Shown here: positions 20,495-64,000 of the stretch, in pieces
Numbering within the stretch: position 1 is the first letter of the stretch
How the letters are laid out: each line of letters opens with the position of its first letter
Virus record (IMG/VR): IMGVR_UViG_3300001041_000022
Location: 1-64,000 of that record
Length of the DNA: 64,000 bases
Source of the DNA: a virus
Reading direction: 5' to 3' (one strand)
The notes under the pieces: model-generated
Databases searched by the model: none
What the model was told of the DNA's origin: nothing
Seen by the model: only the letters and a program-made list of their open reading frames with translations
Made by a program: the position numbers and the translations under genes

Positions 20495-20520
20495 CCCTCC
20501 TGACGGGGAGGATATAATTG
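20495..20520 (+). promoter_or_regulatory. hairpin sequestering the Shine-Dalgarno of the next nuclease gene
   Basis: CCCTCC (20495-20500) can pair with GGGAGG (20506-20511), which is the RBS for the TTG start at 20518, leaving a TGACG loop. A GGTAGCTACC palindrome lies just upstream. Translation of the nuclease is probably kept low unless the stem opens. Confidence 0.6.
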
Positions 20521-21711
20521 GAAAACATAACACATAAATACAAGTATAATATTAATGATGTAATCAATGGTAATATAAAAATATTAAACCTAATTAGGAT
20601 TAACCATGGGAAACATACTATTAAAGGCTATAAATATGAATGTTTGCAATGTAAATATATAGGGAAAATGGATGAATATCATTTAAAAGCCAATCGTAAA
20701 TGTCCTATATGCTCTAACAAAAAAGTTAAAATAGGAATTAATGATATGTGGACAACTAATCCTAGTTTAGCTAATTTGCTGCATGATAAAAATGATGGGT
20801 TTAAATATACTCAAGCAAGTAGTGTATTTGTGAATTGGAAATGCGACAAATGCGAAAATATAATAATAAACAAATCAATAAATAATATTAGTAAACGAGG
20901 TTTGTCTTGCCCTAAGTGTTCTGACGGGGTGAGTTATGCCCAGAAATTTATGTATAATGTTTTAATTCAGTTAGGTATTGAATTCACAACAGAACATGTT
21001 TTTAGCTGGAGTAAAAACATTGAACATACAAATACAAAGCTTAATGGTACTAAGATATACGATTTTTATATTGAAAATAAAAATATTATAATTGAGGTAC
21101 ACGGCAACCAACATTATGAAAAAAGTTTTCCTAATTCATTAAGGACTCTAAAAGAAGAACGAGAAAATGATGAAATAAAAGAATGTATTGCCAAAATAAA
21201 CGGAATTACAAATTATATAATTATTGATGCACAGTCGCCTAATTTACAATACATAAAAACTAATATATTAGATAGTGAAATAATAAATATATTTGATTTA
21301 TCAAGAATTGATTGGATAAGGTGTCATGAATTTGCTTGTAATTCGTTAGTGAAATCGGTCTGTGATTTATGGAATAGTGGTATGAATAATACTTTAGATA
21401 TTAGCAAAGAAATAAAATTAAGTAGAAAAACTATTACTAAATATTTAAAACAAGGTGATGAATTAGATTGGTGTAAATATAAAAAATTCGATCAACAATC
21501 AAACCCAGTAGTACAATTAAATATAAATACAGGTGAAATAATTAATAAGTATGACAGTGTTGGAAAAGCAAAAAGTGAAACTGGAGCATATCATATTTCG
21601 GAAGTTTGTAAAGGCGAATATAAACAGTCTGGTGGATATAAATGGATGTATAAAAAAGATTGGGAAATACAACAAAGTTTCAATAAAAAATCACTTTTAA
21701 TCAAAATATAA
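20518..21711 (+). CDS. zinc-ribbon-array PD-(D/E)XK nuclease with NUMOD-like tail
   Basis: 397 residues. Two CxxC...CPxC zinc ribbons (DUF4379-like, the second including KWDKCEN-type WKCDKC and SCPKC) cover about residues 35-140. Residues 175-240 hold DFYIENKNIIIEVHGNQHYE, the core of a Vsr-like PD-(D/E)XK nuclease. The C-terminal VQLNINTGEIINKYDSVGKA and SGGYKWMYK resemble the NUMOD1/IENR DNA-binding repeat of homing enzymes. Putative homing endonuclease. Relatives lie at 46,421 and 62,720. Confidence 0.7.
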   Translation: MENITHKYKYNINDVINGNIKILNLIRINHGKHTIKGYKYECLQCKYIGKMDEYHLKANRKCPICSNKKVKIGINDMWTTNPSLANLLHDKNDGFKYTQASSVFVNWKCDKCENIIINKSINNISKRGLSCPKCSDGVSYAQKFMYNVLIQLGIEFTTEHVFSWSKNIEHTNTKLNGTKIYDFYIENKNIIIEVHGNQHYEKSFPNSLRTLKEERENDEIKECIAKINGITNYIIIDAQSPNLQYIKTNILDSEIINIFDLSRIDWIRCHEFACNSLVKSVCDLWNSGMNNTLDISKEIKLSRKTITKYLKQGDELDWCKYKKFDQQSNPVVQLNINTGEIINKYDSVGKAKSETGAYHISEVCKGEYKQSGGYKWMYKKDWEIQQSFNKKSLLIKI

Positions 21712-25218: not shown

Positions 25219-26961
25219 ATGGACTTATATACAATTAGAAATACTTTGAATCTAGGCAAATCTATCTACGACTTACAGTTAAGAGTTACATATTATACTA
25301 GGGTATCAACTTCTACCTTAGATCAATTAAACTCTCTCAAGAATCAAATTAATTATTTTGAAGAACATATTAAAAGTTGTAATAATTGGACTCTCGTAGA
25401 AGGATACATCGATGAAGGTATTACAGGCACATCAATCAATAAAAGAGAAGCATTTAACCAAATGATTGAAGACGGAAGAAATAAGAAATTTGATTTAGTT
25501 ATAACTAAAGAAGTAAGTAGATTTGCTAGAAATACAATTGATAGCTTGTTTTATACTAGAGAATTATTAAAATACGGTATAGGAGTGCTATTTCAAAATG
25601 ATGGAATAAATACCTTGATGCCAGATTCGGAGGTTAAACTTGCCATAATGTCTAGTTTAGCTCAAGAAGAAAGTAGAAAGATATCAGATAGAGTTAAATG
25701 GGGGCATAAACGTTCAATCGATTCGGGAAAAGTGTTGGGGAATAATAAAATATGGGGATATAATAAAGAAAATGGCAAACTAGTAATAGAGAAAGAAGAA
25801 GCTGAAATTGTATGTCAAATCTTCGATTTATATGCAAATCAAAATAAAGGAATAAGGACAGTATCCGATATGCTGTCTCAAAAAGAAATTGTAAATAGAA
25901 ACGGAAACCCCATTACGTTTAATACTATAAAATCTATTATTACTAATCCAAAATATAAGGGATATTATTGTGGTAAAAAATCAACAACAATAGATTTTAT
26001 TACAAAAGAGCGAGAGTTTTTTAATTCAGATAAATGGATAACATATAAAGATTATGAAAGCGTTCCACCAATTGTTTCCGAGGAAATATGGGAAAAGGCA
26101 AACAATATCTTAAAACAAAGAAGTGAAAAAATGACATCCGAAGATAAGACATCGTATCAAAATAAATTCTTATATTCTGGAAAAATAATTTGCTCAGAAC
26201 ACAAAACATCATATTGGAGAAATTTTTATAAATACGACACTATAGAATCAAAAGAAGTATGGCAATGTAAAATTTATAGAAAAAAAGGTAAAAAATTTTG
26301 CGATAGTCCAATGATGTATAAAAATGAGTTGGATGATATTATGAAACACGTACTACATATGTATTCTAAGTATAAAAACGTTTTTAGCAAAGAATTAACT
26401 GAACTACATTCTAAATATTTAAAAGAAGTTAATTATGACAAAGATATTAAAGAGTTGATGAACAATATAAATGAAAATAAAGTATTAAAGAAAAATCTTT
26501 TACGGTTATATGCGGGAGGAAATGTAGCGGACAACGATTATCAAGAACAAATTAAAGATTTAAATGATGAAATTGAGGGTTATGAAAAACGAATAAAAAA
26601 TTATGAAAAATTAAACGATGCAAAGTATGATGTAGCATCACAAGTAAAATCATTAAAAGAATTCTTTAATTTTGATTTTGATATTAACAGTGAACTAGAC
26701 GAAGAAACAATGGATAAATTTTTGGAAAAAATTGAAGTATCAAAAGGGAAAGAAAAAAATGAAATATGCATTAATGTTGTATTAAAAGCGGGTCTGGGTG
26801 AAATACCAGTTTACTTCATAAGAGATATGCATTTGATGTTTATCACACATATAGAAGATAACAAACGCATGTTTAAATTTTTTAGAAAGAAAAACGCTAG
26901 AGATACACATCCTGTAGAGGTTAATTACATTATAGATTTACAATTTGAACTTGCTTCTTAA
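25219..26961 (+). CDS. large serine recombinase (integrase)
   Basis: 580 residues. The catalytic domain (1-165) has YYTRVSTSTLDQ with Ser30 and the conserved EVSRFARN and AQEESRKISDRV segments. Residues about 170-300 are the recombinase domain, followed by a zinc ribbon (C-SEH...C...C near 320-365) and a coiled coil at about 400-480, ending with a beta domain. It catalyses site-specific integration and excision between att sites. Confidence 0.95.
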   Translation: MDLYTIRNTLNLGKSIYDLQLRVTYYTRVSTSTLDQLNSLKNQINYFEEHIKSCNNWTLVEGYIDEGITGTSINKREAFNQMIEDGRNKKFDLVITKEVSRFARNTIDSLFYTRELLKYGIGVLFQNDGINTLMPDSEVKLAIMSSLAQEESRKISDRVKWGHKRSIDSGKVLGNNKIWGYNKENGKLVIEKEEAEIVCQIFDLYANQNKGIRTVSDMLSQKEIVNRNGNPITFNTIKSIITNPKYKGYYCGKKSTTIDFITKEREFFNSDKWITYKDYESVPPIVSEEIWEKANNILKQRSEKMTSEDKTSYQNKFLYSGKIICSEHKTSYWRNFYKYDTIESKEVWQCKIYRKKGKKFCDSPMMYKNELDDIMKHVLHMYSKYKNVFSKELTELHSKYLKEVNYDKDIKELMNNINENKVLKKNLLRLYAGGNVADNDYQEQIKDLNDEIEGYEKRIKNYEKLNDAKYDVASQVKSLKEFFNFDFDINSELDEETMDKFLEKIEVSKGKEKNEICINVVLKAGLGEIPVYFIRDMHLMFITHIEDNKRMFKFFRKKNARDTHPVEVNYIIDLQFELAS

Positions 26962-27845: not shown

Positions 27846-28445
27846 TTATTGTTTGATTAGGTAAATTTTATCCCCCTGAACCACTTTAATTGACTTAACT
27901 CTGGCAGATAATATATCTCTAAGATTCACATATGTGCTACCATCAATCTTATAATTATCAACCTTTACTGGAGTTCCATCAGAATAAAAAAGCTTCATAG
28001 TATTATGTTCCACGTTATCATCTCCTTCTTTTGGAATAGTAGGAACTTTTCCCGATTTCAAATCGGATAAACTTAATCCGCCAGTCCACTGAAGGTGCGG
28101 ATAGTCCTTAAAACTAGTCCAATCACCTCCATAACTATCAAATCCAACAGAAAGACCAATTTTCCCGATTTTTTTAAATAATGCAATATCATTCCAATCA
28201 ATTTTACCATTAACTATTGGAGCAAAGTCAACAGCCAGACCGTAGTTGTGCATTGAGTTACCACCTTTGGCTTGAGTCACAATATTTCCAGAAGTAGTTC
28301 TTCCTTGAGCATACAATGCGTTTTGTTCTGCTATTGTTCGTAAACCTTGTGTAATAGTTACATTAATATTTTGTTTTTTACACTCAGCTAAAAACTTTTC
28401 AGTAAGAATTTTTACATATGGATTTAACTTATTTAAATCTATCAT
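27846..28445 (-). CDS. endolysin: VanY/M15-type peptidase with stalk-like C-terminus
   Basis: 199 residues. GLRTIAEQNALYAQGR, SMHNYGLAVDF (His66, Asp73) and YPHLQW (His117) are the zinc ligands and catalytic residues of M15 L-Ala-D-Glu/D-Ala peptidases. Residues about 148-199 (LFYSDGTPVKVDNYKIDG, then STYVNLRDIL) resemble the copper-amine-oxidase-N 'stalk' repeat of clostridial surface proteins, a likely wall-binding module. It cuts peptidoglycan peptides at lysis. Confidence 0.88.
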   Translation of the reverse strand: MIDLNKLNPYVKILTEKFLAECKKQNINVTITQGLRTIAEQNALYAQGRTTSGNIVTQAKGGNSMHNYGLAVDFAPIVNGKIDWNDIALFKKIGKIGLSVGFDSYGGDWTSFKDYPHLQWTGGLSLSDLKSGKVPTIPKEGDDNVEHNTMKLFYSDGTPVKVDNYKIDGSTYVNLRDILSARVKSIKVVQGDKIYLIKQ

Positions 28446-28475
28446 AAGTAATCACCTTCCATTCTTTTATATTTT

Positions 28476-29006
28476 TTATTCAACAGGAGTATCATTTCTT
28501 TCAATATTCTCACCCACTAATTCATCTCTTTTCTTATTGAAGAATTGCAATATAGGCTTAAACCGTTTAAACCCAAGGTCTATAGAGTTTTCAAGAATTG
28601 AAGAAAATTCGATTACAACAATCATACTATACAAAAATGTGCTGATTGCTTGACCACAAATAACTTCTGGAATAATGCTAGTTTGATTAGCAACATATAA
28701 GAAAACTCCATAAAAGAATATTTTTGCAAATAGACCATATTTAAGTTTCTTGCTTGATAGGGTTTTGTCTTCTCCCTTCCATGAAATTACAAAATAATAT
28801 AAGCTTATAGTTTTATATTTTTTATAAACTTCTGCCATCATTCTGCTGATTACGTCAGCAATTACTAAAACAAAAATAAAAACGATTATTTCTTTTGGAT
28901 ATCCTATTGCACTTAAAAACGTAGTCAATATCAAACTGACCAACCAAACCATTTCATTTTTTAAGATTTTTAAGAATCCTAGTAAATGACTAATCACCTC
29001 GCTCAT
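28476..29006 (-). CDS. phage holin (holin_4 / toxin-secretion type)
   Basis: 176 residues from ATG 29006 after AGGGGGA. Hydrophobic segments at about 17-34, 36-55, 90-110 and 115-135, with the basic cytoplasmic loop and acidic tail typical of the clostridial toxin-secretion/phage-lysis holin family. Forms the lysis pore next to the endolysin. Confidence 0.8.
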   Translation of the reverse strand: MSEVISHLLGFLKILKNEMVWLVSLILTTFLSAIGYPKEIIVFIFVLVIADVISRMMAEVYKKYKTISLYYFVISWKGEDKTLSSKKLKYGLFAKIFFYGVFLYVANQTSIIPEVICGQAISTFLYSMIVVIEFSSILENSIDLGFKRFKPILQFFNKKRDELVGENIERNDTPVE

Positions 29007-29033
29007 TTTATTTCCCCCTTGAAATTTGAATAA

Positions 29034-29124
29034 TAAAAAAGAGACACTCATAACTGAATGTCTCTAACCTCTATATTAACTTGCTCTCACAAGTAATTTT
29101 AAAAAGAAAGAGGTAATAACCTCT
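29034..29124 (-). terminator. tandem terminators between tail fibre and holin genes
   Basis: Two minus-strand hairpins: AGAGACA/TGTCTCT (29040-29065) followed by a T-run at 29035-29040, and AGAGGT/ACCTCT (29109-29124) followed by a T-rich tract. They separate structural from lysis genes. Confidence 0.7.
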
Positions 29125-37157: not shown

Positions 37158-38300
37158 TTAAGTAATTGAATTTAACCTGCTTGTTAATATTGTAAAATCA
37201 CTTGCGTATAAAGTATCTCCTGTGTTTTTATCTAAAATCCCTGTAGCATTCTTGCTCCCTATAGCATTTTTAGCTTCATTAAATCTAGTGGCATAAAATA
37301 ATCCAGATACAACATTCGTTAAAGGGAATCCTGAAAGACTCCATCCCTTAAAACTATAAACATCTCTAATGTTTTGTAAAAAATTATTCCATTCAGTAGC
37401 GGGCATATTAAAAGTAGCTCCCGAATAAACACCAGAACTCCAATTAAAACTAGGTGGTCTATCACTAACTGTTAGAGAGAAATACCCACTTCCTCCGCTA
37501 TAATATATCCATATATTAGTTGTGCCAACTCCTACTGCTGATATTAACCCCGTAGCAGATACTGTGGCTATAGAAGTATTTCCTGAAGAATAAGTAGCAC
37601 CATTAGTTGTTACATCTACTTGAGAACCATCATCATAATTAGCTTTTACTGTTAATTGAAATGTTTGCCCAAGATTTAATTGCCCGTTATAAGGATACCA
37701 GTATGTAAAAGTACCAGTATATTCTCTATAATCGGTTGTTACATAAGCTGGCTTAACTACATATAATATTCCATCATATTGAACTTCTCCTGTTAAAGTA
37801 TAGTCAGTACTTCCAGTTAAACTTCCGTAAGTACAATTGGGGCTATCATAACCAGTGTATCCAGAATCAACAGAAATTGGATAGTAATATCCCCACCCCT
37901 CTCGACTAAATCTAAATGCTTCATATTGATTTTGTGGATTAGATAAATTAGCGATATCTGCAACTAATGTTGTTTCATATATGCTGATAGGTCTAACATA
38001 AGCTGTAGCTGAAGAGGTACTAATGCTTCTGGTATCCGCCCTATACCAAATTCCATTCCATTTTGCCCAAGCTTCAAATGTGTATGTTATTCCTTTGCTT
38101 AAATTAGAATAGCGATATAGTGGAGATGTATAACTACTATCTGTTCCCACATTTATTACATGAATCAAACCATCATCATAAATAGGATCATCTATATGTA
38201 CAAAACCAAAATTATCATATTGATTTTCTGGATTCTCTAAACCATCGATATATAAATCAATATAAGTATCTGCTATTCTAAAAATTTCTATGGTTGCCAT
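37158..38300 (-). CDS. structural protein with fibronectin-like and bacterial-Ig (Big_2) domains
   Basis: 380 residues from ATG 38300 after GAGGTG. Two Fn3-like repeats (about residues 5-95 and 95-200, each built as 'ENQYDNFGFVHID' or 'NQYEAFRFSREG' plus Tyr-rich strands) precede a Big_2 domain (about 205-285, LGQTFQLTVKANYDDGSQVD). Such domains decorate tails or capsids and bind surface glycans. Confidence 0.75.
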   Translation of the reverse strand: MATIEIFRIADTYIDLYIDGLENPENQYDNFGFVHIDDPIYDDGLIHVINVGTDSSYTSPLYRYSNLSKGITYTFEAWAKWNGIWYRADTRSISTSSATAYVRPISIYETTLVADIANLSNPQNQYEAFRFSREGWGYYYPISVDSGYTGYDSPNCTYGSLTGSTDYTLTGEVQYDGILYVVKPAYVTTDYREYTGTFTYWYPYNGQLNLGQTFQLTVKANYDDGSQVDVTTNGATYSSGNTSIATVSATGLISAVGVGTTNIWIYYSGGSGYFSLTVSDRPPSFNWSSGVYSGATFNMPATEWNNFLQNIRDVYSFKGWSLSGFPLTNVVSGLFYATRFNEAKNAIGSKNATGILDKNTGDTLYASDFTILTSRLNSIT

Positions 38301-38331
38301 TAATAATTCACCTCTATTTCCCATTGTGTGC

Positions 38332-38361
38332 AAAATAAAAAGACCTCCGATTAGGAAGTCT
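38332..38361 (-). terminator. minus-strand terminator
   Basis: AGACCTCC (38341-38348) pairs with GGAAGTCT (38354-38361) with one mismatch; a T-rich tail follows on the minus strand. It lies after the small zinc gene at 38387-38491. Confidence 0.6.
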
Positions 38362-38386
38362 CAAATAATATTTAATCTATTTTTAG

Positions 38387-38491
38387 TTACTTAATATTCA
38401 ATTTGCATTTTTCACATTCATATACTAAATGTGTTTCATGTGTCAGGTTAGGTAGTTTATATTTGGGATTATTGCATTTTTCACAACTCAT
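38387..38491 (-). CDS. zinc-finger peptide (34 aa)
   Basis: ATG 38491 after GGAGGTG. MSCEKCNN and YECEKCK are two CxxC pairs about 23 residues apart, a complete small zinc ribbon. Function unknown; an upstream in-frame extension lacks an RBS. Confidence 0.6.
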   Translation of the reverse strand: MSCEKCNNPKYKLPNLTHETHLVYECEKCKLNIK

Positions 38492-38528
38492 GTTTTCACC
38501 TCCATATATATCAATCTTAAAATTCAAA

Positions 38529-38554
38529 ACAAAAAAGACACTCTTCCGAATGTC
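38529..38554 (-). terminator. minus-strand terminator
   Basis: GACACTC pairs imperfectly with GAATGTC (38537-38554); a run of six T follows on the minus strand. It lies between the retropepsin gene and the zinc peptide gene. Confidence 0.55.
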
Positions 38555-38584
38555 CATTTTCAAATAAAACACTCCTTTCGTGCA

Positions 38585-38614
38585 AACAAAAAGACCTCTC
38601 TAACCAGAGGTCTT
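38585..38614 (-). terminator. terminator after the retropepsin gene
   Basis: A perfect 9-bp stem AAGACCTCT/AGAGGTCTT (38591-38614) with a T-run on the minus strand. It isolates the protease pair from the downstream structural genes. Confidence 0.75.
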
Positions 38615-38629
38615 AAATATTAAAACATA

Positions 38630-39181
38630 CTATTTTTTACCACAACATTTCTTATATTTTTTCCCAGTACCACACGGGCAAAGTTCATTTGCTCCTATTT
38701 TGGGTGCTTTTTTTGATGGGATTGTAGAATTATATAATTTAACATAATTAGTTTCAGACACAGAAGGCATTCTAAAAGAAAAAATAGTTTTCCCATTATA
38801 ATTAGAAACAGCAAAATCTCCCTTGTTCATAACATCCATTCCTATTAACAAGTCTGCTCCACTAAATGAGCCTTCTGTAACTCTTAAATTTTTAATAACA
38901 ATTTTATTAGGCAACCACAAATCTACAATATATTGATTCGTGAGATATTCACCATTGGCAGCAATAACTTTTTGAATACCTATAGGCAAAAGATTACATT
39001 CTTTTACTATTTTATTTGTAATACAACTTGCAGTAGCCCCAGTATCCCATATTCCTTCATATTTATTAGTTAAAACATTTGATTTTGCGATTATAGAATT
39101 AGAAATCAAGATTTCATTTTTTAGCACATTTGCCATTCCGTTATTTGTAGTGGTAAAACAACTAACTGCAACCCCATTCAT
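38630..39181 (-). CDS. retropepsin-like aspartic protease with a SEC-C zinc tail
   Basis: 183 residues. EGIWDTGATASCI holds the aspartic-protease triad D46-T47-G48-A49, and SGADLLIGMDVM (about 110-121) is the second clan AA signature, so the single-domain, dimer-type fold is complete. GANELCPCGTGKKYKKCCGKK at the C-terminus is a SEC-C (SecA C-terminal-like) zinc motif. Substrate unknown; candidates are a phage structural precursor or a host protein. It sits downstream of the DUF5678-like gene behind a dedicated promoter. Confidence 0.85.
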   Translation of the reverse strand: MNGVAVSCFTTTNNGMANVLKNEILISNSIIAKSNVLTNKYEGIWDTGATASCITNKIVKECNLLPIGIQKVIAANGEYLTNQYIVDLWLPNKIVIKNLRVTEGSFSGADLLIGMDVMNKGDFAVSNYNGKTIFSFRMPSVSETNYVKLYNSTIPSKKAPKIGANELCPCGTGKKYKKCCGKK

Positions 39182-39207
39182 CTACATTTACCTCGAATTT
39201 ATTTAAG

Positions 39208-39462
39208 TTATTTTATCGGATGTTCAAATACAACCCTTGAGTGATAAGTTTGCGTATAATTTTCTTCATTCAATTCACATTTTTGAACAAGAAAAGTACC
39301 CATTTCTTCTGTTTTATTAGTTTCAGAAATGGCTTCTTCTATAGTATTATAAGCACCCAATACAATATCGTTTTTGATTACGATATACTTGCCCTCGTAT
39401 TTTTTTACCAATTCTTTTAAGTTATTGATAAAATAATTGAACTCTTTTTCAAGTTTTATCAT
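39208..39462 (-). CDS. DUF5678-like small protein, partner of the protease gene
   Basis: 84 residues. YEGKYIVIKNDIVLGAYNT followed by a helix and MGTFLVQKCE matches the DUF5678 strand-turn-helix-strand pattern. From memory, such genes recur beside clan AA proteases, so the two may form a pair (inhibitor, chaperone or substrate); not proven here. It is the first gene after the promoter at 39486-39514. Confidence 0.65.
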   Translation of the reverse strand: MIKLEKEFNYFINNLKELVKKYEGKYIVIKNDIVLGAYNTIEEAISETNKTEEMGTFLVQKCELNEENYTQTYHSRVVFEHPIK

Positions 39463-39485
39463 ATAATACCATCCTTTGCCTTTTT

Positions 39486-39514
39486 ATTTTACAATTATAT
39501 ATTTGTAAAGTCAA
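39486..39514 (-). promoter_or_regulatory. sigma-A-type promoter for the DUF5678/retropepsin pair
   Basis: On the minus strand TTGACT (39514-39509) and TAAAAT (39491-39486) are 17 nt apart, 24 nt before the start of the DUF5678-like gene. Confidence 0.65.
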
Positions 39515-39809
39515 CAGTTAAAACTTTTATTATAGTATATGTATAGTGTGCATAAACGTTATATATTATATCTAATAAATTAATATTATATGATGTATTA
39601 AATCTTCATTATATTCATCGGCATTATGTGAAACATCTTGAAGTGAAAAATAGGGACATTAATGTCCCATTTAAAATAAAGTAAAATATAATACTAATAC
39701 TATATCATATTATAGTGGATTGTGGAATATTTTGAAGATAATAATTTCAATAAAAGTACCATTTGATATGCAAAAAGACCTCTCTAGCCAGAGGTCTTTT
39801 CAGCAAAAA
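39515..39809. other. AT-rich non-coding gap with a palindrome and a strong terminator
   Basis: No gene is seen. GGGACATTAATGTCCC at 39653-39668 is a perfect 16-bp palindrome, T-rich on the minus side, so a terminator or operator. AAAAGACCTCT/AGAGGTCTTTT (39773-39800) is a perfect 11-bp stem with T-runs on both sides, a bidirectional terminator for the gene at 39810-40001. Confidence 0.65.
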
Positions 39810-40001
39810 TTATAATATGTTTAATTTAACTTTTAATGTATCCCCGTTTTTTATTATAATTTCATTTGTTTTAATTAAGTCTCCACGTATAATTTTTGTA
39901 TTTGTTTCAACTGCACTATTACCAGATGAATAACCCAAATATTGTTGTAAATAAACAGTATTATCAATGTTCAATGAACTATTATAAATAGTATTTGACA
40001 A
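39810..40001 (-). CDS. small hypothetical protein, TTG start (63 aa)
   Basis: TTG at 40001 follows GGAGGTG. Asn/Thr-rich, beta-like sequence; could be a small virion or structural protein. It directly follows the SDH-type protease gene. Confidence 0.55.
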   Translation of the reverse strand: MSNTIYNSSLNIDNTVYLQQYLGYSSGNSAVETNTKIIRGDLIKTNEIIIKNGDTLKVKLNIL

Positions 40002-40029
40002 TTGAATTCACCTCCATTTTACTATTCTA

Positions 40030-41082
40030 CTAACATTTTATCCACCCTTGATCAAAATCATTCCTGCGAATACCAATGTTTTTATAAACATTGCCTTGTT
40101 GCGTAGATATCATTTCTAAAGCAGGCTCAAGAGTGATTGTCTTTTTGTATTCATATTTTATATCGGCACTTTGTATTGTTGCAATAATACCTTCTACATC
40201 TATTTTATCACTATTCATATCATTTTGTGAATAGAATGGCTTGAAATTTTTACATTTTAAACTCAAGTCTAAATATTCACTAATTTTCATATTATTTTTA
40301 TATTCATTAAATAATTGCCATATAAAATTTTCCAGTTCATTATCTGGAATTTCTATAATTTTCTCACTCAATATCTCCAAGGCTTCGTTACGATTTATGA
40401 GATGACCATGATTATATAATTTTTGAGTAAGACTATCAATGATTTCATTTATTAATAAATAATCATCCTTCTGGTTTAGGTGTAGTTTTAATAACTTTAG
40501 TGCTAATGTTCTTATTTGGTTATAAGATCTATGTACCGCACCTAAGGCTAGTGGATTTATATTGGTCGATAATAATTCAAAAGCTTTTAATAAACTCGAC
40601 TCTTCTTTAAGGTTCATTGTACTTTTGGCTAATTCGTAATAACTCATCACATCTTCTACACTTAATCCTATTCTTGCCCTTAAATCATTTTCTTGCCCTG
40701 GTATAGAAGGATTAAATGGAGTAGTTATTGTTGGATCTATAGGACTTATATCACCCATCTTACCCATAATTATTTTATCTGCGCCCAGAGAAATCAAGGT
40801 TGCAGCACTATTTGCGTGATAAGGTATTAATACCGTAAACTTCTTAGCATACTGCCTTATCATATTAACTAACTTCCAAGGCACTAAAGTATTTCCACCC
40901 ATACTGAATAAAAATAAATCAATTCTTTCTTGCTCACCGATATTTAATAATATTTCTTGAAAATATAAATAAATATCACTTTCAATTCTTGCAGAAAAAT
41001 TAGAATTGTCATTCGTAAGATAGCAAATAACCTTTGATTTATTATGTTCTTCTATACTGTTTATTAGATTTTTAATATCCAA
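40030..41082 (-). CDS. SDH-type ClpP-fold serine protease
   Basis: About 350 residues from TTG 41082 (RBS GAGGAGG). LFLFSMGGNT and VLIPYHANSAATLISLGADKI followed by MGDISPIDP match the SDH_sah/serine-dehydrogenase-proteinase family, a soluble relative of ClpP/SppA; the likely nucleophile is Ser92 in ANSAAT. The C-terminal 170 residues are helical and basic. Usually membrane-associated or cytosolic; the target here is unknown. With the retropepsin it forms a two-protease island. Confidence 0.85.
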   Translation of the reverse strand: MDIKNLINSIEEHNKSKVICYLTNDNSNFSARIESDIYLYFQEILLNIGEQERIDLFLFSMGGNTLVPWKLVNMIRQYAKKFTVLIPYHANSAATLISLGADKIIMGKMGDISPIDPTITTPFNPSIPGQENDLRARIGLSVEDVMSYYELAKSTMNLKEESSLLKAFELLSTNINPLALGAVHRSYNQIRTLALKLLKLHLNQKDDYLLINEIIDSLTQKLYNHGHLINRNEALEILSEKIIEIPDNELENFIWQLFNEYKNNMKISEYLDLSLKCKNFKPFYSQNDMNSDKIDVEGIIATIQSADIKYEYKKTITLEPALEMISTQQGNVYKNIGIRRNDFDQGWIKC

Positions 41083-41112
41083 AACCATACCTCCTCATTA
41101 AACATTTCTCAC

Positions 41113-41179
41113 ATTATAACATATTTTGGAGGATTGTGGGAGGTTTTAAGAAATAAGTAACCTAGTCGATTATCGACTA
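41113..41179 (-). promoter_or_regulatory. extended -10 promoter and 17-bp palindrome upstream of the SDH protease
   Basis: On the minus strand TGTTATAAT (41121-41113) is an extended -10 element about 30 nt before the protease start; no good -35 is seen. TAGTCGATTATCGACTA (41163-41179) is a perfect palindrome upstream of it, a likely operator, in the divergent spacer toward the toxin gene. Confidence 0.55.
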
Positions 41180-41203
41180 CCTTTAAAACAACTTACAAAA
41201 CAA

Positions 41204-41238
41204 TTGTTGTAAAAATATCTTAAATATTGTAATATAAT
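41204..41238 (+). promoter_or_regulatory. promoter of the toxin-like peptide mRNA
   Basis: TATAAT at 41233-41238; TTGTAA at 41207-41212 gives a 20-nt spacer, or 17 nt to the overlapping TAATAT at 41230-41235. The predicted transcript has a leader of about 90 nt. Confidence 0.5.
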
Positions 41239-41337
41239 GAAAGTAGGTTGTACTAGTGCATCTTAATTCAAATGTATTGGGAAAGTCTTTGGAGATGGGC
41301 TTCATGCCTAATACAAGAGAAAAGAGAGGTAATAATT

Positions 41338-41436
41338 ATGACGGTTATTATAACTGTCTTGTGTATCATCTACTATGCTGAGTGTATAGTAGAGAAGTAC
41401 ATAAAGATAAAGAACGCCCTGCACAAGCGTTCTTAA
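41338..41436 (+). CDS. toxin-like hydrophobic peptide of a type I toxin-antitoxin locus
   Basis: 32 residues after AGAGAGG: a membrane-spanning N-terminal half (TVIITVLCIIYYAECIV) and a basic tail ending NALHKRS. Size, charge distribution and a convergent antisense promoter resemble TxpA/BsrG/Fst-type membrane toxins. Its stop lies inside the antisense terminator hairpin. Confidence 0.7.
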   Translation: MTVIITVLCIIYYAECIVEKYIKIKNALHKRS

Positions 41437-41489
41437 CCTGCCGACTAGGGTTTCCCCTAGTCTTTTTATTTTGTTGCGTTTCTTAACCT
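41400..41489 (-). ncRNA. predicted antisense RNA to the toxin mRNA
   Basis: From the strong minus promoter at 41496-41523, transcription would begin near 41489 and end at the AGAACGC/GCGTTCT hairpin (41411-41433), whose minus side is followed by TTTATCTTT. The RNA of about 90 nt overlaps the 3' third of the toxin mRNA by some 70 nt, including both hairpins, as in convergent type I systems. A direct repeat GCGTT(T)CTTAACCTG lies at 41428 and 41476. Confidence 0.7.
41443..41470 (+). terminator. terminator of the toxin mRNA
   Basis: GACTAGGG (41443-41450) pairs perfectly with CCCTAGTC (41455-41462), followed by TTTTTATT. It is inside the predicted antisense transcript. Confidence 0.85.
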
Positions 41490-41495
41490 GAAATA

Positions 41496-41523
41496 AGTAT
41501 ATCACTTGTTAATACAATGTCAA
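41496..41523 (-). promoter_or_regulatory. strong sigma-A promoter for the antisense RNA
   Basis: TTGACA (41523-41518) and TATACT (41501-41496) with a 16-nt spacer on the minus strand. The -35 box is part of TGTCAATACA, repeated 25 bp upstream (41543-41552). Confidence 0.8.
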
Positions 41524-41641
41524 TACATTATTTTTAAACATTTGTCAATACAAAATAAAAGTTTTATTGGGAAGAGGTAGTAATAACTTCTACCTCTATA
41601 AAAATTTGTGTCATAGTTGTAATTTTAAGTAATATATATTA

Positions 41642-42448
41642 TTATATAGCTACATTATTTTTATTGAGGGCTAAACTGTTTCCGCAGAAGCCTTTTTCTT
41701 TTAGCAATTTCTGTATGAAATCTAATCCTTTAGCAGCGACCAAACATTGGCATCCATTATACTCATAATTTCCACGGATAAAATGAACTTCTCTAACTGT
41801 AAAATACTTGCTATCACAAAATCTTTGATATGGTAAATTATTGGACATTAATACATCGTTCTGTCTCAAAAATTTGAATAATTTGTTGCGTCCAATTTTT
41901 AGCACCTTGGCACACTCGTTCATCGTCTGAGCATTTTTAGCACTCAGAAAATCATCATATCCTTCAGCTTTAGGAATAAGTACTTTATTTTGTTCCTCTA
42001 TCTTTTCTTTTTCCTCAACCACTGTAAGTAATTGTATTAGTGCTTCTTTGTATGTAGTTGGTAAGTTATATTGTCCATGTATAAATGCATTTGCTAATAC
42101 ATCTTTTGCTTTCAACTGATAATCAACAAGTTTGTTTACCACTGCTGGATTATCTTTTATCATCTTTGGAGTGATAGAAATTTTAGCCAACCATAATGGA
42201 AGAAAATCTAATTCTATACCTAAAACTTCTTGATTGCCACCATTTGTAGGGAGGATCAAATTTCGTCCCCCTTTAGAAAGAACTAAGTCTTCTTGTATTT
42301 TCTTTCTTTCATTCTTCATTTGTCCTTCAGATAACCCTATACCATTACAAATATAACTTACGCCAACATATATTTTATTATCGTTGTTTTTAACTGCTAA
42401 TAAATTATCACCGTTAAAATTTACTTCTTTTATTATTAAATTATTCAT
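41642..42448 (-). CDS. phage antirepressor (Ant N-terminal and KilAC domains)
   Basis: 268 residues from ATG 42448 after GGGGGA. N-terminal P22 Ant-like domain (VGVSYICNGIGLSEGQMKNE, LPLWLAKIS and 'LVDYQLKAKDVLANAF'), linker helix, and C-terminal KilAC domain (about 145-260, AQTMNECAKVLKIGRNKLF and CQCLVAAKG). Binds and disables a repressor or controls the lytic switch. Its start overlaps the preceding gene. Confidence 0.88.
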   Translation of the reverse strand: MNNLIIKEVNFNGDNLLAVKNNDNKIYVGVSYICNGIGLSEGQMKNERKKIQEDLVLSKGGRNLILPTNGGNQEVLGIELDFLPLWLAKISITPKMIKDNPAVVNKLVDYQLKAKDVLANAFIHGQYNLPTTYKEALIQLLTVVEEKEKIEEQNKVLIPKAEGYDDFLSAKNAQTMNECAKVLKIGRNKLFKFLRQNDVLMSNNLPYQRFCDSKYFTVREVHFIRGNYEYNGCQCLVAAKGLDFIQKLLKEKGFCGNSLALNKNNVAI

Positions 42449-42752
42449 TTTCAACGTCCCCCTGTAGATTTATTTCTAATCCATTCTTCAGGAATATATG
42501 TGTATCTTTAAGGTTGGATATTCTTTTATCTTGAACAATACAATCTATTGCAGATTTTTTAATACTGATATTACTTTCATCCTCACAATCGCATAATGTA
42601 ATTTTATCTCCACATTGTCGAATATCAAAACTATCAATCAGTTTTAAAAAAGTTACATCTCCTAAGATGTCCACACAAACAGATTTACCCTTCAACTTTT
42701 TAAATTCATTTTCAAACTCATTATTGCTTATTTCTTTTATTTCTCTAGACAT
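42441..42752 (-). CDS. hypothetical protein of the immunity region (103 aa)
   Basis: First gene after the promoter-operator at 42806-42847. Beta-rich, with KGKSVCVDILGDVTFLKLID; no domain recognised. It overlaps the antirepressor start by 8 nt, so both are probably co-expressed early. Confidence 0.65.
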   Translation of the reverse strand: MSREIKEISNNEFENEFKKLKGKSVCVDILGDVTFLKLIDSFDIRQCGDKITLCDCEDESNISIKKSAIDCIVQDKRISNLKDTHIFLKNGLEINLQGDVENE

Positions 42753-42866: not shown

Positions 42867-43088
42867 TTATTTTTCCAATGTGAAAGTATATAATTCTTTC
42901 ACATCGCATTCTAATAATAATGAGAACTTTATCAATGTTTCAATAGTAGGATTAATTGCACGAAAAACATTATGCAAATTTTGATTACTCATGCTTAATT
43001 GTTTTGCAATCCAAGTTTTTGTCGCTCCCGTCCGTGCCTGATAATTTTTAACTTGTTCTTCTATTTTATTTTTAACAATAATTTGCAT
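42867..43088 (-). CDS. XRE/Cro-type HTH repressor
   Basis: 73 residues. TKTWIAKQLSMSNQNLHNVFRA is the helix-turn-helix; TIETLIKFSLLLECDVKELY is the typical following helix pair. A single-domain Cro/CI-type regulator, probably the phage repressor acting on the TATCAATA boxes that flank it (inference). Confidence 0.85.
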   Translation of the reverse strand: MQIIVKNKIEEQVKNYQARTGATKTWIAKQLSMSNQNLHNVFRAINPTIETLIKFSLLLECDVKELYTFTLEK

Positions 43089-43235: not shown

Positions 43236-43265
43236 TAAAAAAAAGACCCCTTTTAGTAGAGGTCT
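43236..43265 (-). terminator. terminator after the small gene at 43271
   Basis: AGACC/GGTCT with a partly paired inner stem (43244-43265) and a nine-T run on the minus strand. It separates this gene from the repressor. Confidence 0.65.
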
Positions 43266-46420: not shown

Positions 46421-47590
46421 CTAGCCCACCTCCTTTAATAAGTTGCTTGATAGTATGTCTTCTATATTATCAAAATCCCAATACGGTATTTCTAACAATT
46501 TTATATTATTGTTATTACAATAGTCTCTCTTAATTTGATCTTTAATTTGGTTTATTTTAAACTGTTCGTTAGCCCACTCTTCTCCTTTCCCTGCAAAATC
46601 AACAGGAAAATAATGTTGTTTACCCTGATATTCTATTAAAACATTATGTTCTGGTAAATAAAAATCAAAACGTAACGGTTGAATATATCTACAATCTAAA
46701 AATATTTTTTCTATTTTAAGCTGAACATTATTTAAAGATAAATATTCTTCAATTCTTTTTTCGCCACGGGTTTCTTTACAAAATGGGCATCTGTTTCCTT
46801 TCTGAATGTCCTCCCAAATTACTTCATATATGTGTCCTTTGTCGCATTGAACCTCTAATTTAGTTCCAGAATTTATGTATGTATCTGATAATAATTTATA
46901 TCCTTTTATATTTTCTATAAAGTTTTTAACGAAATCATATGGCAGTCTTGAACCATCTGCTCTTAAAATATCACCACATTCATTACATTGGCGTTTAGTT
47001 TTATGTAAAAATGATTGGAATTTAGTTTCAAAAACATTCCCACATTTACATCTAATTTTTATTTTATTATTAGTGTTAACGTAATCTTTTTCTTCAGTTA
47101 ATAATACACAGTCGCTATTACTGTAAAATTCTATGAAGTTTCTTATATCTTCATAAGGGTATAAGAATGTTTTAATTTGTTCTTTTTTACTACATTTATT
47201 ACAAACATATTGCCCCTTTTTAAAGTTACTTAGGCTTTTAGAAAATATATTCCCACACCTACATAATAATTTTAAATGTCTTCCAGAATTTATATACTCT
47301 TCAGACAATAATTTACACATAGAGTTGCTTTCTATTTCAATATAGTTTTTAACATCATCATATTTTAATCTATATCTTTCACTTATTAACGATCTAGAAC
47401 ATTTGTTACATTGTCTTTTATTTGCTCGTTTAAAACTATCTAAAGTTGTTTCAAATTGTTCGCCACAAGCACATTCAATAATTATCTTTTTGGATGATTT
47501 TATATATTCCTTACTAATTAATTTACAATTTGATTGGCTTTCTATTTCAATAAAGTTTTTTACTTCAGTATATGTAAAGTATTTTCCCAT
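46421..47590 (-). CDS. zinc-ribbon-array PD-(D/E)XK nuclease, free-standing
   Basis: 389 residues from ATG 47590 after GGGAGG. Four similar zinc-ribbon units at about residues 25-65, 85-125, 150-195 and 215-260 (ECACGEQFETTLDSFKRANK and the later CRCG, CKCG, CDKGH pairs), then a Vsr-like nuclease core RFDFYLPEHNVLIEYQGKQHY. The ribbons suggest modular DNA recognition. Stop and next start are adjacent (TAGATG), and the RBS of the tail gene lies in its last codons. Probable homing enzyme inserted between tail genes. Confidence 0.7.
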   Translation of the reverse strand: MGKYFTYTEVKNFIEIESQSNCKLISKEYIKSSKKIIIECACGEQFETTLDSFKRANKRQCNKCSRSLISERYRLKYDDVKNYIEIESNSMCKLLSEEYINSGRHLKLLCRCGNIFSKSLSNFKKGQYVCNKCSKKEQIKTFLYPYEDIRNFIEFYSNSDCVLLTEEKDYVNTNNKIKIRCKCGNVFETKFQSFLHKTKRQCNECGDILRADGSRLPYDFVKNFIENIKGYKLLSDTYINSGTKLEVQCDKGHIYEVIWEDIQKGNRCPFCKETRGEKRIEEYLSLNNVQLKIEKIFLDCRYIQPLRFDFYLPEHNVLIEYQGKQHYFPVDFAGKGEEWANEQFKINQIKDQIKRDYCNNNNIKLLEIPYWDFDNIEDILSSNLLKEVG

Positions 47591-58900: not shown

Positions 58901-59926
58901 TTATTTATTTTGTTTGTCTAAATGTCCTTTTAGCTTATCTAAGTCTTTCCACTTGGTTTCTTTGGCTGAAAGGTCGTTGTAGATCTTGTACATATCCGAT
59001 GATGTCCAACCCATAATGGCTATAATGAAATCACTACCTAATCCAAGTCTAGTTAAGTGAGTTACGATATAATGCCTTAGGCAATGCGGATAAAAATTTA
59101 CTTCAAGATGTTTCTCCCACTTCATTACCCAACTTCTTACAGTAGATTCTGTGGCTGGCTCTCCATTACTTTTAATAAAAATAAAATCATGCTCTTTATT
59201 ATTCTTTTTCATTATTTTTTCACGTTCTATAAGCCAATCTTTGTAATATGGTAAGAATGTGTCTTTTATCAAATATTTTATCAACATTTTGCCAGCCTTT
59301 GTTCGACCCTTCGTCTTGATCTCTTTCAATGTTTCTAAAAATATGTCATCAAAAGCCGTATTGTTTTCGTCTATAATTGATGTTGTAAATCTAAGCCATT
59401 CGGAAATTCTGGCTCCGCTACTTATTGCAATAGCAAGTAAACAAGCTTCCTGCGGCTTATTTATTTCATTTTTAAGATAGTTAAGCAATCCATTAATCTG
59501 GTCTTCAGATAAAATAGTTTTTTCTCTTTTAAGAACCTTTGGCATTAGCTCTATAGATTTTATAACTACGTTACGAAAAGCAGGATAATCTTCATCATAA
59601 AATTTTTCTATAAAAACAGATAATTGGCTTAATGCCGATCTTACTCTACCAAATCTGCTCGAACCCCATTGCAATTCATCTACGGAATAACTAAAAAAGT
59701 CAGCCATTTCTATTTTTTTAATAAATGGGAATTCTTTATTTTCATTATTTAATAGATTCCAAGTAAAGAATATGTTTAAATCACTCTCATATCCTTCTAT
59801 TGTTCCATCAGCACATCTTGTATTTTTTTCTTTTAAGTATCGCTTCATTAAGTTTTTATTTACGGGATTTATTTGTTCTATTAGCTCTGGAGTAGTTATT
59901 ACATTTCTAAAAGTTTTTCTTGGCAT
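58901..59926 (-). CDS. tyrosine recombinase-like protein in the tail cluster
   Basis: 341 residues from ATG 59926 (RBS GGCGGTGG). Catalytic residues: Arg173 (SSGARISEW), His281 and Arg284 (PHCLRHY), Trp307 (MGWTSS, in the second His position) and Tyr316 (KIYNDLS). The N-terminal part fits a core-binding SAM-like domain. Complete enough to be active, but its place between tail genes is odd; a DNA-binding or regulatory use of the fold, as in the SPbeta master repressor, is an alternative. Confidence 0.82.
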   Translation of the reverse strand: MPRKTFRNVITTPELIEQINPVNKNLMKRYLKEKNTRCADGTIEGYESDLNIFFTWNLLNNENKEFPFIKKIEMADFFSYSVDELQWGSSRFGRVRSALSQLSVFIEKFYDEDYPAFRNVVIKSIELMPKVLKREKTILSEDQINGLLNYLKNEINKPQEACLLAIAISSGARISEWLRFTTSIIDENNTAFDDIFLETLKEIKTKGRTKAGKMLIKYLIKDTFLPYYKDWLIEREKIMKKNNKEHDFIFIKSNGEPATESTVRSWVMKWEKHLEVNFYPHCLRHYIVTHLTRLGLGSDFIIAIMGWTSSDMYKIYNDLSAKETKWKDLDKLKGHLDKQNK

Positions 59927-59974
59927 ATTCCACCGCCTTTTATATTTAATATCTATATAAATTAATAATTTCCA

Positions 59975-60006
59975 AAACAAAAAGAGTAGAGATTTCTCCC
60001 TACTCT
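59975..60006 (-). terminator. terminator ahead of the tyrosine recombinase gene
   Basis: AGAGTAG (59983-59989) pairs with CTACTCT (60000-60006), followed on the minus strand by TTTTTGTTTT. Confidence 0.65.
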
Positions 60007-60023
60007 GTAAAAGCACATTTTAT

Positions 60024-62719: not shown

Positions 62720-64000
62720 TTATATATTTGAAATTTCTTTTATTTTATTAATAATCAAATCTTTCCAAGTTTCTTCTTTATCATCAGTCCAATAAGGTAT
62801 CTCTAAATAAAAATATCCTTGCCTTTTAGCAAAGATACGTTTATATCTGTCTTTTAATTGTTGGTAATGAAGCTCATATTCTAGTGTTGTATTATTGTGA
62901 TTTGATTTTTTATAATTAAAAATATTTTGTGTTTTATAATGTTGTACACCATGAACCTCAACAATTAATTTTAATTCAACAATTTCATTATCATATGGTA
63001 AAACATGTTTAGTTTTTGGGTTAACACATTTTATCTTACATTTATGTTCATGCAAAATTGTATGTTTTAAAGATTCTAAATGTAGTCTAACTTTTTCTTG
63101 TAAAAAACTTTCTTCTCGTTCACGAACACAATTTGGACAACGAAAATTATATACATTTGATTCATTTATACATCTTAAATAATCTTCATGATTTCCATCT
63201 TTACATTTAAACCAGATTTTTTTATTTGATTTTGGAGCATATTCGTATGGAGTGTCTTTATTTTTATCACTCCAAATTCCCAAAATTTTTGGATATAATA
63301 TTCCCAAACTATCTTTTATATGTATATCATTACCACTACAATAAGAACATCTTTGTCCAATTGAAAAATTTTTCGAGATAATTTTATAAGAACCATGGTA
63401 ATCTTTTTCTTGACATTTAATCCATATTATTTTTTTACTTCCGAATGAAATTTCCCAAGGACTAATTATATTCTTTTTATAATCCCAATATTTTTCTAAA
63501 AAATCAGAACAAATATTATCTATACCCCATTGAGCGAAAGAATTACATTGGTTACATCTAATGCTACCCTCTTGACCACCCGTAAAAGCACTAATATTTT
63601 TTAATTCACTTTTATGTATTCTATTAGGACATTTAAAATAATACTTTAATTTAGAACTATAGCATACTTTTGAAGGTTGTTTTTTATTTAATTCATAATC
63701 CCATCTATTAAATATGTCTTGCCTATCATTTTCAATGCACCATTGTTCAAACGATATAGATTTTTGTAGTTTGGTATTTAATAAACTTTCATTTTTTGTT
63801 GTTTTATAAGAACATTCATCACAATGATAAAATCCAGTATTTTTAATACACGTATTATAATTATTAAATGCAATATATTTTTCTTTATTACATAAACTAC
63901 ATTTAACTCTTATCTTTATATTACTATTCTCTTTTAAATCTTTAACATCAATTAAAATAGTATTAAACATTTTAGTAAAAGAATAACCTTTTGACTGATA
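62720..64000 (-). CDS. zinc-ribbon-array PD-(D/E)XK nuclease (partial, runs off the edge)
   Basis: The frame stays open to the window end; ATG 63970 is internal or possible but has no clear RBS. At least four Cys-pair ribbons (CSLCNKEKYIAF, then CNQC, CSYCSG and CPNCV) lie within about residues 30-290 counted from ATG 63970; the core NEIVELKLIVEVHGVQHY follows at about 330-345. The same family as the genes at 20518 and 46421. Placed directly upstream of the collar-type fibre gene. Confidence 0.68.
   Translation of the reverse strand, partial: YQSKGYSFTKMFNTILIDVKDLKENSNIKIRVKCSLCNKEKYIAFNNYNTCIKNTGFYHCDECSYKTTKNESLLNTKLQKSISFEQWCIENDRQDIFNRWDYELNKKQPSKVCYSSKLKYYFKCPNRIHKSELKNISAFTGGQEGSIRCNQCNSFAQWGIDNICSDFLEKYWDYKKNIISPWEISFGSKKIIWIKCQEKDYHGSYKIISKNFSIGQRCSYCSGNDIHIKDSLGILYPKILGIWSDKNKDTPYEYAPKSNKKIWFKCKDGNHEDYLRCINESNVYNFRCPNCVREREESFLQEKVRLHLESLKHTILHEHKCKIKCVNPKTKHVLPYDNEIVELKLIVEVHGVQHYKTQNIFNYKKSNHNNTTLEYELHYQQLKDRYKRIFAKRQGYFYLEIPYWTDDKEETWKDLIINKIKEISNI

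Follow-up and report, generated by a model that had tools for sequence, protein, structure and literature searches.

A DUF5678 gene paired with a retropepsin-like protease gene in phages and some bacterial chromosomes: a candidate protease-plus-controller module

Retropepsin-like protease genes of phages recur as the second member of a gene pair whose first member encodes a small DUF5678 protein. Among 76 distinct retropepsin ORFs of phages, 61 directly follow a DUF5678-like ORF, and the recurrence of the pair amid differing surroundings, in phages and in some chromosomes, suggests a self-contained protease-plus-controller module. We consider it very probable that the two genes form a functional unit. 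The pair is described here from a window of 64,000 nt, positions 1–64,000 of the IMG/VR virus record IMGVR_UViG_3300001041_000022, where the DUF5678 gene is designated B, the retropepsin gene A, and a nearby gene for a second protease C.

The gene pair and its surroundings in the window

Gene A (38630–39181, minus strand) encodes a 183-aa retropepsin-like aspartic protease with a C-terminal SEC-C motif, as judged by Pfam, profile matches and the fold of a homologue. The DTGA and LLIGMD signatures and the SEC-C tail, which the original prediction placed in one gene, are all found in it. The catalytic motif D46-T-G-A (39035–39046, minus strand) is part of a WDTGA stretch aligned with the WDTGA of foamy-virus protease, and profile alignment and homologue fold agree in assigning it to the retropepsin active site, where it had been expected. 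Among 58 paired homologues (L255, L257 and the near-identical L218 are left out of all 58-pair statistics), W, D, T and A are present in every sequence and G in 98%, and residues L112, I113 and G114 of the second-half hydrophobic-hydrophobic-Gly motif (LLIGMD) in 88–100%. Profile matches include the foamy-virus and Ddi1 proteases, and the Pfam score for gag-asp_proteas is 27.9 bits, slightly below the cut-off of 28.2. The SEC-C motif (residues 165–182; 38636–38689, minus strand) displays the CxC...CC pattern and scores 32.6 bits against PF02810, with a cut-off of 20.4. Gene B (39208–39462, minus strand) encodes 84 amino acids and lies 26 nt 5' of A; it passes the curated cut-off of PF18929 (28.4 against 23.2 bits) and holds the conserved 5' position, bearing out the anticipated DUF5678-like gene just ahead of the protease.

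PADLOC returned no confident match to B (best E 0.005, PycC) or to the protease core of A, for which it gave hits to the SEC-C tail and one weak hit, PDC-M08B, over residues 31–125 (12.3 bits, E 0.033). PHROG at E 0.01 yielded no match for four B proteins (best E 0.016 for that of the window) or for the core of the six A proteins scanned. Among annotated phages there was no match to the window B; A matched four records, or five with the core of its homologue L185 as the query, and the Leptospira phage record KF114879 leaves the protease unannotated. Plasmids contained no match to the window B or to the L185 protease core, and solved structures no significant sequence match to B. A single-sequence scan of genome contigs with B returned only the window's own contigs; the genome-contig scan with the whole of A was swamped by SEC-C tails.

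Terminator-like sites are commoner than chance between 38200 and 41700 (11, against 0.9 in shuffles, s.d. 0.9). One lies 3' of A (38588–38614, minus strand), and a near-identical one (39772–39797, minus strand) separates the C unit from the B-A pair. The idea of an island walled off by terminators thus holds for the terminators but not for the island, since the second site splits C from the pair. A TTGACT-17-TAAAAT sequence 5' of B (39514–39486, minus strand), proposed as its own promoter, is present; sites of this class are no more frequent in the same region than in shuffles (33, against a mean of 26.1, s.d. 5.4), and a promoter role for it is indistinguishable from chance.

Gene C (40030–41088, minus strand) encodes a 352-aa protease of the SDH type with a predicted ClpP fold. 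It proved to be the nearby MGGN/NSAAT protease of the original prediction: both motifs are present, its sequence matches SDH_protease (PF01972) over residues 52–129 only, at 43.2 bits against a cut-off of 31.3, and G63, G64, S93 and D117 are invariant across C and seven relatives. Its score against the NCBIfam equivalog NF047768 (Clp_like_SDH) is 53.8 bits, far below the cut-off of 250, and solved structures gave no significant sequence match. The extended -10 TGTTATAAT (41121–41113, minus strand, read by eye) and the palindrome TAGTCGATAATCGACTA (41163–41179, pattern scan) are both found 5' of C. A 63-aa ORF 3' of C (39810–40001, minus strand) had no family match in Pfam and PHROG scans, and its resemblance to small ORFs 3' of C relatives was too weak for a claim.

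The adjacency of the three genes on one strand is what a single proteolytic island of A, B and C would show, but the terminator divides them and C is not found near the pair elsewhere. No B or A was found next to any of 18 relatives of C; the fetched stretches of B-A loci hold no SDH relative, except for the window's own contigs, and these contigs alone were returned by a single-sequence scan of genome contigs with C. Homologue searches place C as a phage-borne member of a group known from Bacillota chromosomes. Co-occurrence in other genomes therefore supports the linkage of B with A and speaks against that of C with either; a single island is very improbable, and C is a separate unit outside the B-A module.

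The proposed immunity region is reflected on one side of these genes, where an antirepressor gene (41642–42454) and a weakly matched HTH gene (42867–43088) are located. The other side carries instead a gene with tail/Ig-domain matches (37158–38333) and, farther out, holin and peptidase genes (27846–29051), and we read the 2310-aa ORF between them as a putative tail fibre gene.

Recurrence of the pair in phages and chromosomes

The spacing of the two genes is tight. With gene starts picked by script, the distance from the stop of B to the start of A spans -32 to +31 nt among the 58 pairs for which it could be set; the genes overlap in 20 of these, and the gap is exactly -4 or -1 in 14. Sequence distances among A proteins correlate with those among B proteins (Mantel r 0.42, a value reached in 0 of 2000 permutations), and a common homologous gene within up to three flanking genes per side is found in 19 of 1653 locus pairs.

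Neighbours of the pairs are accordingly diverse. Portal, head, terminase, tail and baseplate genes are among them, as are methylase-Mrr fusion genes (L191, L194) and a Mu F-like gene (L230); among 55 downstream neighbours, portal, minor head, baseplate, tail and scaffold families appear once or a few times each. In L197, L208, L216 and L226 a CI-like repressor gene precedes the pair by 70–314 nt on the same strand; these four genes were chosen by eye from the upstream neighbours and all four were then confirmed, and the repressor family phrog_4 was matched by 5 of 57 upstream neighbours. The window pair is not directly downstream of a repressor gene.

The presence of virion genes next to some pairs, such as the Mu F-like gene of L230, could indicate that A is a maturation protease of head or tail proteins. 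Retropepsins without B point the same way: by gene names read by eye, two of them (L240, L254) lie between a large MuF-like and a scaffold-like gene and one (L244) after a MuF-like gene, in apparent head operons, and others (L249, L250, the first copy in L190) follow tail genes. A fixed place in a head operon is, however, seen only in some of these B-less relatives. The B-paired copies have variable neighbours, adjoin housekeeping genes as well, and carry an extra tail which the B-less ones do not have, while the window pair is bracketed by terminators. A role of the paired protease in virion maturation is accordingly improbable.

In bacterial chromosomes, all four strong Bacteroidota retropepsin matches are paired with B, and so is a planctomycete match (L300). 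Housekeeping genes flank three of these five on one or both sides, namely those for PEPCK, ATP synthase beta and a short-chain dehydrogenase. Counting the strong matches too, retropepsin loci in which B was found numbered 7 of 12 in Bacteroidota, 2 of 10 in Pseudomonadota and 0 of 9 in Bacillota; most of the weak chromosomal matches are unpaired. DUF5678 also adjoins more distant clan AA proteases (L177, L173, L302, L315, L317, L318), and has no recognised retropepsin within 1.5 kb in 7 of 8 Bacillota and 4 of 7 Nitrospirota matches. When seven B candidates were compared with the Pfam family DUF5678, two passed the cut-off, four matched more weakly (E 0.0006–0.013) and that of L303 had no match; L303, called a DUF5678-retropepsin pair by eye, was dropped, as Pfam gave its small protein no family.

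The two genes differ in how often they occur alone. B lacks A in 5 of 13 loci from the B search. Fifteen phage retropepsins lack B, three of them at or near a contig end, and the only paired-type A among them (L228) is at a contig end. Pairing is marked by a tail motif, PS..(I/V/T)D(F/Y), represented in the window by P139-S-V-S-E-T-N-Y146 (38744–38767, minus strand), with N where most relatives have D. Under a permissive pattern accepting D, N or E, and defined after the sequences had been inspected, the motif occurs in 55 of 58 paired proteases and in none of 12 complete unpaired ones, a set that leaves out the contig-end L228, L252 and L167 and still includes similar sequences such as L250 and L251. 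Common descent may explain the motif.

Predicted docking and possible function

Structure was modelled on the homologues L185 and L243, two natural pairs in which B and A are in frame, each taken as one fused chain; the window A and B are 49% and 52% identical to those of L185. The protease domain of the L185 model (92–211), the one part covered by the list of structural matches, adopts a predicted retropepsin fold, with the Rickettsia protease APRc (PDB 5c9f, 5c9b) as its best structural match (Z 12.6, 119 residues, rmsd 2.9) and Z of about 10–11 for HIV and EIAV proteases. B is modelled as helix-helix-strand-strand-helix-strand-strand, and a search of a viral structure library with a homologue model returned two Pandoravirus DUF5678 proteins (rmsd 2.1–2.3 over 60–65 columns, E 0.011–0.023).

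B is predicted to dock on A, as read from whole-chain AlphaFold scores obtained with nine truly paired alignment rows per chain: pLDDT 88.3 and pTM 0.77 for L185, and 84.9 and 0.76 for L243. With the 75 residues of B left unplaced and everything else perfect, we calculate a pTM near 188/263 = 0.715 or 197/272 = 0.724, to which one or two hundredths are to be added, giving about 0.74 at best; this bound serves as the reference in place of control chains. The linkers have pLDDT below 50. Short linkers in fused chains raise local concentration.

We put the chance that B binds and restrains A slightly below even. Tentatively, the pair may belong to a toxin-antitoxin or abortive-infection family, with a retroviral-type aspartic protease as toxin, a docked DUF5678 restrainer, and SEC-C or basic tails for targeting; inhibition, trigger, target and toxicity are here what we infer. 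The pair would be a mobile, self-contained two-gene accessory cassette (moron) with its own terminator. B would be translated first and bind A. Retropepsins need dimerisation for activity, and A, a single-domain retropepsin, should be no exception; B would most likely keep it inactive or unassembled. Once B is lost, or in response to a signal from a phage or from stress, the A dimer would be free to cleave a cell protein, resulting in growth arrest, superinfection exclusion or addiction. The tail of A, be it the SEC-C motif or a stretch rich in lysine and arginine, would direct the protease to its target, for which ribosomes, nucleic acid or Sec components are conceivable candidates.

The frequent occurrence of B alone, against the absence of the paired-type tail from complete B-less proteases, is the asymmetry expected of a toxin and its inhibitor. 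The pairing, the predicted docking and the CI-like repressor ahead of some relatives likewise make the suggestion of a protease plus inhibitor acting in the lysogen reasonable for B and A, though not with C as a part. Alternatively, B could just as well serve as an activator, chaperone or substrate adaptor; the complex would then be the active protease on a protein of the host or of a competing phage, in counter-defence or host take-over. Pairing and docking fit such a role just as well, and the few bacterial A2 peptidases characterised so far have activating protein factors or act in cascades (PMC11957791). Solitary B genes would be odd for an adaptor of A; also against this role, paired-type A without B was seen only at a contig end (L228). 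We regard it as possible but rather unlikely.

B might also be a substrate that A cuts to an active peptide, with its C-terminal stretch F-H-S-R-V-x-F as product or cleavage site. The stretch is fairly conserved (S75, R76, V77 and F79 in 72–76% of the 58), but it is also kept, with no A nearby, in the orphan B of L265 and L267 and with one change in L266, making this reading quite improbable. The orphan B of L271 and L272 have lost it.

Relation to known systems

Retropepsin-like proteases with operon partners have been described in Pseudomonas as RimB and RloA (PMC11957791, PMC12239564). They resemble A in working with an operon partner; their partners are the ATP-grasp ligase RimK and the phosphodiesterase RimA (or RloB and RloC) rather than DUF5678, and the setting is Pseudomonas operons rather than phage cassettes. 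APRc shares the retropepsin fold, and the structural match provides no link to DUF5678 or SEC-C. The clan AA DTGF proteases of TIGR03698 adjoin DUF5678 in some loci (L177, L302) but mostly lack it, the B profile detecting a neighbour in 2 of the 30 Planctomycetota loci collected with this family (L300, L302).

In lambda, the two rexAB genes form a lysogen module immediately 3' of the CI repressor gene. Pairs L197, L208, L216 and L226 resemble it in standing directly downstream of a CI-type repressor on the same strand, whereas the window pair is not beside a repressor; we know of no sequence relation between the two. Type II toxin-antitoxin systems are small, closely spaced gene pairs with the small partner first, mobile between contexts and with orphan partners. 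B and A share the close spacing of adjacent small genes, the small gene first, the orphan B and the changing contexts; the difference is that toxicity and neutralisation are, for this pair, drawn by analogy. To our knowledge, no aspartic-protease toxin has been described. A literature search joining 'retropepsin' with 'toxin-antitoxin' found no paper, and searches on related terms found no description of a DUF5678-retropepsin pair.

The pair provides DUF5678, a domain so far uncharacterised, with a specific partner and a role open to testing, and it shows retropepsins to be distributed among phages in a mobile, paired form overlooked by annotation. With two small genes, it offers a testable candidate for a protease-based abortive-infection or addiction system.

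Pairing of DUF5678 and retropepsin genes in phages

The retropepsin gene A (38630-39181) lies on the minus strand of the window, directly 3' of the DUF5678 gene B (39208-39462, minus strand). The domain calls of the original prediction hold for these genes and for the SDH-type protease gene C: Pfam assigns SDH_protease to C, DUF5678 to B, above the cut-off of that family, and SEC-C together with a near-threshold gag-asp_proteas match to A. The conserved co-occurrence with DUF5678 in other phages, set as a check by the original prediction, is likewise borne out for the clan AA protease genes. Profile-guided scans of viral contigs recovered 80 loci with a query built from five A cores and 13 loci with a query built from four B proteins. 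In most loci, iterated profiles detect a DUF5678-like ORF as the gene next to the retropepsin on its 5' side, and B is directly upstream in 61 of the 76 distinct A sequences drawn from the A-query loci and two annotated phage records. The gap from B to A spans -32 to +31 nt in 58 pairs with both starts set by script; the genes overlap in 20 of these, and the gap is exactly -4 or -1 in 14. Among the 15 A sequences lacking B, three come from the very end of a contig or close to it, and another is an additional copy of A in a locus with a B-A pair; no B was found near the other 11.

Distances among B sequences correlate with those among A sequences (Mantel r 0.42, with 0 of 2000 permutations as high; 58 non-redundant pairs), and a homologous flanking gene, counting up to three genes per side, is common to 19 of 1653 locus pairs. 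The two genes are thus kept together across differing neighbourhoods. Of seven DUF5678 candidates scanned against Pfam, two scored above the cut-off, four below it and one (L303) gave no match, so at some loci the family name rests on the iterated profile. A is absent from the fetched stretch in five of the 13 B-query loci. Orphan DUF5678-like genes, with no protease nearby, occur on phage contigs L265, L266, L267, L271 and L272; possibly they serve as antidotes against a resident B-A pair.

Gene C and the surroundings of the pair in the window

Gene C (40030-41088, minus strand), originally placed in one island with B and A, separates from them on three grounds. The terminator 3' of an ORF of 63 aa (39810-40001, minus strand) stands between C and the B-A pair; neither B nor A occurs in the fetched stretches around 15 chromosomal and three viral relatives of C; and no C is present in the fetched stretch of any B-A locus besides that of the window. 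Some match to C is found in 90 of 249 Bacillota genomes, with close relatives in 14 (42-49% identity over about residues 7-272, or 8-240 in one), some of them near Hsp20 and DNA polymerase III genes; further relatives, at 37-40%, sit on three additional phage contigs. The Gly-Gly, Ser93 and Asp117 of C are unchanged in all seven aligned relatives. We take C to be a separate, ordinary accessory gene. A small same-strand ORF with an S-G-x-P-x-A motif, possibly an SDH-protease partner gene, lies 3' of four chromosomal C relatives (L321, L323, L325, L326), and Hsp20 genes are near L321 and L326.

The region 38200-41700 holds 11 terminator-like hairpins, far in excess of the 0.9 (sd 0.9) expected by chance; promoter-like sites there show no excess over chance. 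One stem pattern fits the terminators 3' of the 63-aa ORF and 3' of A without mismatch. In all, three near-identical terminators on the minus strand (38588-38613, 39772-39797 and 43240-43265) match this pattern with 0, 0 and 1 mismatch, against a chance expectation of 0.01 matches in the window. Two of the three flank the B-A unit on either side, so recombination between such repeats might allow the cassette to be exchanged.

The window, 64,000 bases from a virus record of 66,366 bases, presumably belongs to an SPbeta-like phage. It encodes a serine-recombinase integrase (25219-26961), a protein matching YomG-N, a DNA methylase, NrdD and dUTPase, and also a gene of the tyrosine integrase family (58901-60016). 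A, B and C recur at 100% identity in virus records of 349,050 and 154,102 bases (L081, L082), so the 66-kb record may represent only part of a larger phage genome. Treble-clef matches to DUF4379 appear in three genes (20518-21711, 46421-47590 and 62720-63970), the first below cut-off and accompanied by a NUMOD1 match above the NUMOD1 cut-off; these sequence matches suggest homing-endonuclease-like elements.

Predicted docking and action of the pair

The catalytic Asp of A is conserved. The A profile matches foamy-virus and Ddi1 proteases (E 4e-4 to 1e-2), the foamy-virus alignment spanning WDTGA, and the A domain of the homologue model resembles APRc (Z 12.6) and HIV or EIAV protease (Z 10-11). 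Pandoravirus DUF5678 proteins (BFVD A0A2U7UG46, A0A2U7UD66) are among the structural matches to the B-A model. Ten loci have B and A in the same reading frame, separated by one or two stops; nine were taken as single read-through chains, leaving out L204, in which two kinds of stop occur. AlphaFold2 gave a mean pLDDT of 88.3 and pTM of 0.77 for the L185 chain, and 84.9 and 0.76 for the divergent L243 chain, with the linker below 50 and B residues 1-70 at 85-98 (blocks of ten) in both; the underlying alignments hold only nine truly paired rows. With the 75 residues of B unplaced and the rest perfect, pTM would be bounded at about 0.715 (L185) and 0.724 (L243), perhaps 0.73-0.74 once the unplaced residues are given a small contribution. 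The observed values exceed this bound, which suggests that the models place B on A. B is thus predicted to dock on A, as read from the pTM of the two models.

Under the mechanism we propose, B would be translated first and bind A, probably keeping it inactive or monomeric; release from B would yield a dimeric aspartic protease aimed by the A tail. We infer this inhibition, as we do the trigger, target and outcome. The main rival reading makes B an activator or adaptor of A.

Phage retropepsins come in two kinds, B-paired and unpaired, with different tails. A motif near P-S-x(2-7)-(I/V/T)-D-(F/Y) past the core, a permissive pattern defined post hoc from the sequences seen, is present in 55 of 58 B-paired proteases and in none of 12 complete unpaired ones. 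Paired proteases end in SEC-C (26/58), a strongly basic tail (20/58) or neither (12/58), against 1/12 and 0/12 for SEC-C and basic tails in the unpaired. Several unpaired retropepsins lie within apparent head or tail operons, with gene names read by eye (L240, L244, L254, L249, L250, and L190 at 2806-3249), and as such are candidates that may be aspartic virion-maturation proteases.

The literature searched, which omits most subscription papers and all preprints, names DUF5678 in one paper, off topic judging by its title; in the same literature no paper was found on SEC-C together with retropepsin, retropepsin together with toxin-antitoxin, aspartyl protease, prophage and SEC-C jointly, or PDC-M08. 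The closest described proteases found are RimB and RloA (PMC11957791, PMC12239564).

Distribution and genomic neighbours of the pair

The B-A pair is not confined to phages. The A query matches 12 of 247 Bacteroidota genomes, four strongly (E below 1e-35); B is directly upstream in all four, and is present at seven of the 12 loci with these included. The same pair occurs at a planctomycete locus (L300), and PEPCK, ATP synthase beta or short-chain dehydrogenase lies on at least one side in three of these five loci. Matches elsewhere are weak and mostly unpaired (9/398 Bacillota and 10/249 Pseudomonadota genomes, with B at 0/9 and 2/10 loci). TIGR03698 proteases occur in 21 of 149 Planctomycetota genomes, with a B-profile neighbour in two of 30 loci taken (L300, L302). 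DUF5678 itself is rare (4/299 Bacillota, 7/118 Nitrospirota genomes). It adjoins other clan AA proteases in six loci (L177, L173, L302, L315, L317, L318), the L317 protease scoring below Pfam cut-offs; no recognised retropepsin adjoins seven of eight Bacillota matches, five of those matches being in one genome, or four of seven Nitrospirota matches. Genome G302 has five DUF5678 copies (L174, L178-L181) and no recognised retropepsin, and at least some neighbours of these copies read by eye as UbiD-like.

Of 57 genes neighbouring B-A pairs on the upstream side, more fall to phage repressors than to any other functional class (five matches each to phrog_4 and phrog_8). Four such genes picked by eye, with HTH or CI-repressor domains and an S24 domain, are encoded on the strand of B, 70-314 nt upstream of it. 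Other families among the upstream neighbours include integrase, terminase, minor head and methyltransferase, and a methylase-Mrr fusion gene adjoins the pair in two loci (L191, L194). The 55 downstream neighbours include integrase, head maturation protease, portal, baseplate, tail, scaffold and methyltransferase, as well as two superinfection-exclusion families with a single match apiece and one match to a toxin family. This mix fits a mobile accessory gene pair, and weakly favours a role expressed in the lysogen over one in the virion.
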